62,536 bases of DNA from Magnetococcales bacterium (GTDB lineage: Bacteria; Pseudomonadota; Magnetococcia; Magnetococcales; JADFZT01). The notes under the pieces were generated by a model. It did no database searches and was not told where the DNA came from. It saw nothing but the letters and a program-made list of their open reading frames with translations. The translations under genes and the position numbers were made by a program. Position 1 is the stretch's first letter. Every line of letters starts with the position of its first letter. Positions 59,242 to 61,405 of the stretch are shown in pieces. The stretch is from positions 1-62,536 of the forward strand of contig JADFZT010000022.1 in NCBI GenBank assembly GCA_015232395.1, in the 5' to 3' direction.

Positions 59242-60192
59242 ATGGCGGAGACTCACGATCGATTCATAGCCTGCACCATACCGGTTCATGCCGAACCTGC
59301 GGTGCAGGCGAAACATTGTCAGGGGTGTGCGACCACAGCCGCTCGCCTCGATTTTTTCATGACCGTCGCCATCTCCCTGTTCAGCGCCGTCATGGGCTCT
59401 CTCTCCGGCTCCATCGGCCTTCATGCCATGGCACTTTTGGCTTTTGGGGACGTATTGGTCAAAGGGGGAAACTGGATCTCCATTCGCATCTCCCGCAAGC
59501 CTCCCACCAGTCGTTTTCCCTATGGCTATGGCAAAGTGCTCTTTCTCTCCTCCTTCATTATGGGGGGAGTGCTCTTTTCCGGTGCGGTGGCCTTTTTTCT
59601 GCACAACATCCGACATCTCAACGACGGCCTGGTGGAAAAACCCTCCTTTCTGGCGATTTTTGCGGCACTGACCCTGACCATCGTCGGCGAAATGATGTAT
59701 CGCAAACTCTCCTGCGTGGCCCGAACCAACAACAATCCCGCCTTGAAGGCCGCTGCCCTGGATAACCGGATGGATGCCTTGTCCGCCTCCATGGTATTGA
59801 TCGGCGCGGTCCTGGCTTGGCTGGGCTGGCTTTTTGCCGACCATCTGGCGGCGCTGCTGGTCTCACTGCTGGTCTTGCGGGTGGGCTTTAAAATTGTCGT
59901 GGAGTCGGTGGAAGGGCTGCTCGATATCGGGCTTGCCGCACCCGTGCAAAACCGGGTAGAGGAGATCTGCGTCTTTACCCATGGCGTGCGTGCTGTTGTT
60001 TGGGTGCGTGGGCGGCGGCTGGGGGATTATTATGAGCTGGACCTGGGGGTAGAGGTGGATGGTGGGTTGAGTGTAGAGACGACCCACCAGATTCGCCACG
60101 CCATTACCCGGCAGCTCACCGATGAAATCGACCACATCGCCCGGGTTCAGATCACTTTTACCCCCCATCGCAAAAATGACCCACCGGCCTGA
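59242..60192 (+). CDS. MamB-like cation diffusion facilitator
   Basis: This 316-residue CDF transporter has six helices and a C-terminal ferredoxin-like metal domain. From memory it aligns with the magnetosome iron transporter MamB. Shared features are the N-terminal CxxC (HCQGC), SGSIGLHAMALLAFGDVLVK, ISRKPPTSRFPYGYGKVLFL, LTIVGEMMYRKLSCVARTNN, NPALKAAALDNRMDALSASM and VVWVRGRRLGDYYELDLGVE. The TM5 site DNRMD is kept. In TM2 the usual HxxxD (MamB HSGAD) reads LAFGD, so one ligand of the membrane site is lost. No other mam genes are in the window. Iron, zinc or manganese transport remains possible. Confidence 0.72.
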   Translation: MAETHDRFIACTIPVHAEPAVQAKHCQGCATTAARLDFFMTVAISLFSAVMGSLSGSIGLHAMALLAFGDVLVKGGNWISIRISRKPPTSRFPYGYGKVLFLSSFIMGGVLFSGAVAFFLHNIRHLNDGLVEKPSFLAIFAALTLTIVGEMMYRKLSCVARTNNNPALKAAALDNRMDALSASMVLIGAVLAWLGWLFADHLAALLVSLLVLRVGFKIVVESVEGLLDIGLAAPVQNRVEEICVFTHGVRAVVWVRGRRLGDYYELDLGVEVDGGLSVETTHQIRHAITRQLTDEIDHIARVQITFTPHRKNDPPA

Positions 60193-60302: not shown

Positions 60303-60935
60303 TCAATGGGCCTTGGCGAGGGATTTTTCGATGTCTGTTGCCAGGGAGGAGATTTCACTGACCACTTCATCGATATCCCCGGAAAGCTCTCTGGCGACCC
60401 GGGCGGTGATTTTGACCTCTCCAGCCACCACTGAAAATCCTTTGCCAAACGAACCTGCCCGAGAAGCCTGAATCCCGGCATTGATGGCCAACACTTCCAA
60501 CTCGTTGGAAATTTTATTAATGGAGTGGGAGGTCTTGAGGATTTCGGAGGTGTTGTTGCTGATCTTGCCTTTCAGGTCAGTCAGATCCTGGTGCAAACTG
60601 GCCCCCAGTTGCGCTTGTCGCTCGCTCAACACCTCCGCAAACAGCCCGGAGACATCGTGGGTTAATATCTTGGCGTGATTTCTGACTGCAAACACCTGAT
60701 CCAACAATTGTTCGTTGCCCACCGTATCGATAATAAAATCGGGTTCATTTTGCCGAATAAGGGACTCGACCTCCCGACCGATGGGAATGTTAAGCTTTTG
60801 GGCCAAGGAGATGGCGCTGCGATCGTGATCGGTCTCTATCACAAAATGGACTTTGATCTTGTCGCTGCGGGCAAAAAGCCTGACCAAATGCCTGGCCGCC
60901 TCTCCCGAACCGATGATACCCATTGATTTACTCAT
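60303..60935 (-). CDS. Soluble Rossmann-fold plus truncated chemoreceptor signalling fusion
   Basis: This is a 210-residue protein with no membrane helix. Residues 1-100 form a Rossmann-like nucleotide-binding fold (MGIIGSGEAARHLVRLFARS, then FIIDTVGNEQLLDQVFAV). Residues about 125-210 match the MCP hairpin tip and flank: INKISNELEVLAINAGIQAS, RAGSFGKGFSVVAGEVKITA, then RVARELSGDIDEVVSEISSL. Chemoreceptors normally have much longer coiled coils on both sides. The ATG at 60935 is taken; a TTG at 61040 would add 35 non-conserved residues. It may report a nucleotide or redox state to a CheA array, or be a remnant. Confidence 0.65.
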   Translation of the reverse strand: MSKSMGIIGSGEAARHLVRLFARSDKIKVHFVIETDHDRSAISLAQKLNIPIGREVESLIRQNEPDFIIDTVGNEQLLDQVFAVRNHAKILTHDVSGLFAEVLSERQAQLGASLHQDLTDLKGKISNNTSEILKTSHSINKISNELEVLAINAGIQASRAGSFGKGFSVVAGEVKITARVARELSGDIDEVVSEISSLATDIEKSLAKAH

Positions 60936-61405
60936 GAGGCAGCCGATCTTTTCTGACAAGGATGGTGGGGTGGTTGCGGTTACCAGAGGGCCTGTTGCTA
61001 TCAACTCATCCAGATCGAACAATAAAGGATGGAAATTCAATCAACTGATTCGATAAAGGGCTCATCACCATCTCACTTGGAACAAAGAAAATTAGCCCAT
61101 TTTGCGGACAGGATCATCGAGAAATTATTTTTTTATGACCCATGCTTGTATAACTACGATTCATCATTCCAAAACAACAACCACCCAATGATTTGATGAA
61201 AACAAAATGGCATCAAAATTCTGAAATTTAGCTTGAATTCAACATAATATGGAAACCATACAGCCTCTGAGGTAGACTTACTGTTAGCTCATCATTTGAG
61301 CCAAAATTTGTGTTAGGGCTAAAACCGGTTGGATTGATTGATGAGGGATAGCCATCTCTGGCAGGATGAAAGCCTTTCTTGCCCAACTGCTTAAGAGAGG
61401 CAACT
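60936..61405. other. Gene-free stretch with a solo repeat end
   Basis: No gene is supported in these 470 bases. AT content rises between 61100 and 61280. One end of repeat family B is recognisable at 61283-61313. Confidence 0.35.
61283..61313 (-). repeat. Solo end of MITE-like family B
   Basis: GTTAGCTCATCATTTGAGCC and the following AAAATTTGTGT resemble the right end of the 35338-35582 element (TTAAGCTCATCGTTTGAACC, AGAATTCGTAT). No matching second end was found nearby, so it is a truncated or decayed copy. Confidence 0.5.

Follow-up and report, generated by a model that had tools for sequence, protein, structure and literature searches.

The window analysed here is an entire contig (C22; 62,536 bases) from a Magnetococcales bacterium whose genome comprises 4.94 Mb in 170 contigs. 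It encodes a protein of the cation diffusion facilitator (CDF) family that groups with the magnetosome protein MamV in a clade sister to MamB. The metal site in its second transmembrane helix (TM2) is partly lost, and the aspartate pair of TM5 is retained. With a little better than an even chance, the protein is an accessory CDF of the magnetosome lineage whose transport activity is weakened or lost, and which may assist MamB/MamM in a regulatory or structural capacity. Its subclade seems to be new within a known kind of CDF, and the evolutionary placement is solid. No prior analysis of this MamV-like subclade was found in the literature searched.

The reading frame is intact and open over its full length. 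Membership in the CDF superfamily is given by a transmembrane Cation_efflux domain (E 1.4e-35, 123.3 bits, cut-off 26.6) and a C-terminal ZT_dimer domain (E 4.9e-9, 36.5 bits, cut-off 26.7), both above the curated Pfam cut-offs. An earlier sequence-only reading had claimed similarity to MamB over almost the full length, including the N-terminal CxxC (C26/C29) and the TM5 DNRxD. Both motifs are present, and the complete NCBIfam MamB profile (NF033616, positions 1-284 of 284) aligns to residues 26-309. The score of 272.8 bits is nevertheless below the equivalog cut-off of 350. The MamM model (NF033615) gives 164 bits (cut-off 350) and the site residues are L-D-D-D rather than Tyr-Asp-His-Asp, so the protein is not MamM; FieF and MntE score 90 and 86 bits. 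The identity to MamB is about 33%. An AlphaFold2 model (pLDDT 90.2) matches YiiP with a Z score of 23.6 over 281 residues (root-mean-square deviation 6.0). The YiiP and ZnT matches are full-length, and the C-terminal domain also matches those of MamM and MamB.

A maximum likelihood tree of 82 proteins (IQ-TREE, LG+C20; support as bootstrap/SH-aLRT) places the window protein with MamV of Paramagnetospirillum and Terasakiella and their relatives in one clade of 42 members (100/100). This clade is the sister of MamB (100/98), and MamM is separate. The outgroup (FieF, ZitB) is long-branched and the root position is weak; conclusions are drawn from well supported splits only. The sequence-only reading had set an affinity to MamB against placement in a common zinc or manganese CDF clade, and the tree agrees with the former. 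Its suggestion of a diverged paralogue with a non-transport role is supported as far as the MamB-related paralogue is concerned; the non-transport role is a possibility. Within the clade the window protein belongs to a subclade of 16 (100/98) made up of Magnetococcales and two metagenome-assembled genomes (MAGs) titled Thiotrichales. These two MAGs (L092, L118; 'uncultured Thiotrichales') carry mamB/mamM as well as the CDF nested in the Magnetococcales subclade and are probably mislabelled Magnetococcales. A Nitrospirota protein (L095) assigned beforehand to the MamB set falls outside MamB in the tree.

An approximately unbiased (AU) test rejects the grouping of the window subclade with MamB (p 7e-5), and the protein does not lie inside MamB. 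When the window subclade and its sister group are held to MamV proper, the AU test does not quite reject the grouping (p 0.053), and the branching order inside the clade is weak (60/77). The protein is therefore described as MamV-like, without established MamV orthology. That it is MamV itself, the orthologue of Magnetospirillum MamV located outside the mamAB cluster, would be consistent with this p value, with the fully supported common clade and with an identity of 40-41% to Paramagnetospirillum MamV (about 40% to MamV generally). The two proteins also share the CxxC, the DNRxD, a Lys four residues after the TM2 Asp, the loss of the site-B His residues and an ADH motif in TM6. However, the MamV model (NF040994, equivalog cut-off 500) gives only 269.5 bits for the window protein as against 557-583 for Paramagnetospirillum MamV. 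Counted from the TM2 Asp, MamV carries His at both -4 and -7 and Gln at -9, whereas the window protein has Leu at -4. Two MamV-like subclades also occur together in G005, G030 and P. kuznetsovii; since single genomes hold both, the subclades look like old paralogues, and identity with MamV is improbable. P. kuznetsovii LBB-42 has two more MamB/MamV-like paralogues beside its true MamV (L167, at G055 C5:88721, and G055 C21:30146); L167, the one included in the tree, falls in the MamV-like clade, and its TM2 ligand position is occupied by Tyr, like that of MamM.

Site A of MamB consists of His46, Asp50, Asp154 and Asp158, and the corresponding residues of MamM are Tyr46, Asp50, His155 and Asp159 (PMC3905215). 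Site A of the window protein is L66, D70, D174 and D178, and thus departs from the His-Asp-Asp-Asp of MamB. The sequence-only reading had correctly noticed substitutions at the ligand His of TM2 and at an Asp close by: L66 takes the place of His46 (TM2 LLAFGD, with LAFGD for HSGAD) and M63 that of the Asp seven residues before D70. The Asp50 equivalent, D70, is retained. MamB and the window protein further share the CxxC, the TM5 DNRxD, the C-terminal domain fold and the equivalent of Cys138, which is described as essential in MamB (PMC3905215); the window protein differs in the absence of the TM2 His and upstream Asp and in having Lys at +4.

These changes are not confined to the window protein. 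The -4 position is variable across the 42 members (H 12, L 11, Q 10, Y 6, and one each of K, F and N) and within the subclade of 16 (L 11, Q 4, K 1), while His is found there in 18/18 MamB and 10/10 MamV. Other CDFs have Asp (FieF) or Tyr (MamM). The Asp at -7 is absent from all 42 but present in 18/18 MamB and 12/13 MamM. At +4 the clade has a basic residue throughout (Lys 40, Arg 2), as against none of 31 MamB/MamM, and both site-B His residues are missing in 42/42. All 42 members have Asp at the D70 position and keep D178, and D174 is retained save for one E174 (TM5 DxxxD). H61 is conserved in 14/16 of the window subclade. The altered TM2 is a feature of the clade.

The accessory function favoured here would operate as follows. 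The protein would reside in the inner or magnetosome membrane and dimerise as other CDFs do. With LDDD for HDDD in site A, no site-B His and K74 situated a turn below D70, iron transport may be poor or nil. The absent TM2 His would mean one ligand fewer. TM2 of YiiP runs toward the cytoplasm; in that orientation K74 would be on the cytoplasmic side of D70, a turn away, and might neutralise the Asp cluster or impede the entry of metal. Since the dimer fold is kept, the protein may be a partner that regulates MamB/MamM or supports them structurally, in the way that ZnT6 serves ZnT5. ZnT6 (SLC30A6), the auxiliary subunit of ZnT5, is likewise a CDF with hydrophobic residues at ligand positions, having lost two ligands by hydrophobic replacement (PMC7949119). 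It is eukaryotic and only distantly related to the window protein, and the likeness is an analogy only.

Because Asp or Tyr at the position of L66 serves active CDFs, altered transport is a serious rival. The protein would then be an active transporter of iron or another divalent metal, one that coordinates the metal through D70, D174, D178 and either water or H61 with altered affinity or specificity, and it would feed magnetosomes or export excess iron. The protein retains the CDF fold and three of the four ligands of the MamB type, and the conservation of H61 fits this role. The gene also adjoins FeoB in G021, G028 and 'Ca. Magnetaquicoccus inordinatus' UR-1, with a DtxR/FeoA-type regulator in G021 and G028. 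However, most of the subclade has a non-liganding Leu or Lys at -4, and the conserved Lys/Arg at +4 and the loss of both site-B His also speak against it, which makes active transport rather unlikely. The UR-1 member (L073/L090) of the subclade is probably the gene very like mamB reported to adjoin feoB1 (PMC6783814), though the contig number there differs. That paper gives no phylogeny or site analysis of its mamB-like gene, and the window gene does not adjoin FeoB.

The host is, by its gene content, a magnetotactic bacterium. Another contig (C54) carries MamB (449 bits, cut-off 350), MamM (425, 350) and MamA (216, 200), together with MamQ, MamP and MamO at scores just below the cut-offs. The statement of the sequence-only reading that no other mam gene is near holds for the 62,536-base window, but the genome does have this mamAB cluster. 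Since the contig, and the window with it, stops 2,344 bases past the gene, the statement concerns one contig only, and the location outside a magnetosome island given by the same reading is no more than a possibility. The start of C6 carries MamH together with a fragment of MamE, and that of C3 a second MamE. There are three distinct mamK (C36:21364-22374, C5:56051-57058 and C49:4265-5269; L198-L200), 62-69% identical to the MamK of a relative. Among the four genes that the same reading had proposed to look for, mamK and mamE are thus found, mamQ falls just under its cut-off, and mamI is probably the small open reading frame between mamH and mamE on C6. The mamK copy on C49 lies inside a 771-aa open frame, possibly a fusion or long extension. 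The mamB end of the C54 cluster is adjoined by a gene for an 847-aa DnaK-like protein with a long, acidic, repetitive tail (L007:2567-5110, minus strand).

The genome has six CDFs, of which only the window gene is MamV-like. A scan of a GTDB-based collection, which used one motif and could miss members, placed all matches above 30% identity in Magnetococcales, Paramagnetospirillum/Magnetospirillum, Terasakiella PR1, Rhodospirillaceae or Rhodospirillales MAGs, an Alphaproteobacteria MAG, SAR324, a Nitrospirota MAG and the two 'Thiotrichales' MAGs. The next-best matches were Bacteroidetes and Bacteriovoracales CDFs at 21-25%. MamB-like and MamM-like genes are present in 15/15 carrier genomes outside Magnetococcales-titled records, 14/15 exceeding each cut-off. 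In 398 Pseudomonadota genomes (E <= 1e-33), matches came only from 47 members of the order and three others, all three with MamM over the cut-off. A full-length member is present in 26/48 genomes of the order and a partial one in two. Among the genomes examined, the lineage is confined to those with mamB/mamM. An origin before or beside magnetosome evolution, as the sequence-only reading had proposed, is not borne out by this confinement or by the host's own mamA, B, M, O, P, Q, E, H and three mamK; gene content marks each carrier as magnetotactic, and a pre-magnetosome ancestor is unsupported. A housekeeping zinc, manganese or iron CDF unrelated to magnetosomes would suit a contig of signalling genes without mam genes. 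It is scarcely credible given the sister relationship to MamB, close relatives all in magnetotactic genomes, next matches of about 25% identity and the genome's ordinary CDFs lying elsewhere (C7, C13). Tree and distribution together reject an ordinary CDF clade.

A decaying pseudogene would account for the lost ligand, the long end branch (0.69) and the lack of synteny with relatives. It is very improbable, as the frame is full-length, the fold confident and the structural residues conserved, and the altered site is common to a clade under purifying selection. The ratio of nonsynonymous to synonymous substitution is 0.04-0.12 in five orthologue pairs from relatives, similar to the 0.14 of a MamB pair; orthologues in relatives are under purifying selection.

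Several points weigh against the accessory interpretation. The replacement of His by Leu alone is no proof of transport loss, and active CDFs vary at -4 (PMC3905215). The partnership with MamB/MamM would follow the ZnT6 analogy, and such a heterodimer is hypothetical. The window gene has no close relative (best identity 48-51%); therefore, selection was measured on relatives only. G037, a relative whose genome is complete in a single contig, lacks any member of the clade, so the gene is dispensable for having magnetosome genes. The loss of MamV is listed with no observed phenotype (PMC4306944).

Table 1. Features of the CDF gene and its product in the window.
Feature	Position	Strand	Length
CDF-family protein, MamB/MamV lineage (MamV-like clade, Magnetococcales subclade)	59242..60192	+	316 aa
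N-terminal CxxC (C26, C29), common to MamB and MamM	59317..59328	+	
TM2 site: H61, M63, L66, D70, K74	59422..59463	+	
FPYGYGK loop; F92 and Y96 replace both YiiP/MamM site-B His (before GK)	59515..59535	+	
C158, equivalent of MamB Cys138	59713..59715	+	
TM5 D174-N-R-M-D178, MamB-type DNRxD	59761..59775	+	

The neighbours of the gene in the window encode an HDOD-GGDEF protein, a hybrid kinase, an MCP-domain protein, a methyltransferase and a DUF433 protein. None is shared with the loci of relatives; in relatives other than G021, G028 and UR-1 the neighbours differ as well. The MCP-domain protein (245 aa; 60303-61040, minus strand) has its signalling domain at 139-240, and its N-terminal part has no Pfam match and looks Rossmann-like by eye. 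A sigma-70 promoter scan upstream of the gene found none, and a plasmid search of the neighbourhood gave no match. In six relatives (G021, G029, G030, G036, G040, G046) the orthologue and mamB share a contig and are 24-28 kb apart; this setting, like the FeoB neighbours noted above, also favours the accessory reading. Relatives further have, in their magnetosome cluster, a three-gene module (L046:9420-15446; also L044, L047, L049; WMHbinv6 included) that matches Zorya type I in PADLOC (ZorA E 3e-44, ZorB 1e-65, ZorC 6e-52). By these matches it is an anti-phage, motor-type system within the magnetosome island. Genes of this kind (apolipoprotein, MotB, EH signature) are among those listed in the UR-1 paper, which does not use the name Zorya (PMC6783814).

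MamV was considered a recent acquisition of Magnetospirillum (PMC3934378). The present results show that the MamV clade, the sister lineage of MamB, extends through Magnetococcales and into other groups; its metal site varies, and the basic residue beside that site is fixed. A broader proposal, held tentatively, is that MamV-like proteins are an old third branch of magnetosome CDFs (Magnetococcales, Alphaproteobacteria, SAR324, a Nitrospirota MAG), with repeated degradation of site A and fixation of the basic residue. Its members might be non-transporting regulatory subunits that adjust how MamB/MamM load iron, which would make them a prokaryotic counterpart of ZnT6. For annotators there is a warning: genuine MamV proteins reach 394-412 bits on the MamB model, above its cut-off of 350, and may therefore be annotated as MamB. 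L66, K74, D70, D174 and D178 are concrete residues with which active and auxiliary CDF subunits in magnetosome iron transport could be probed.
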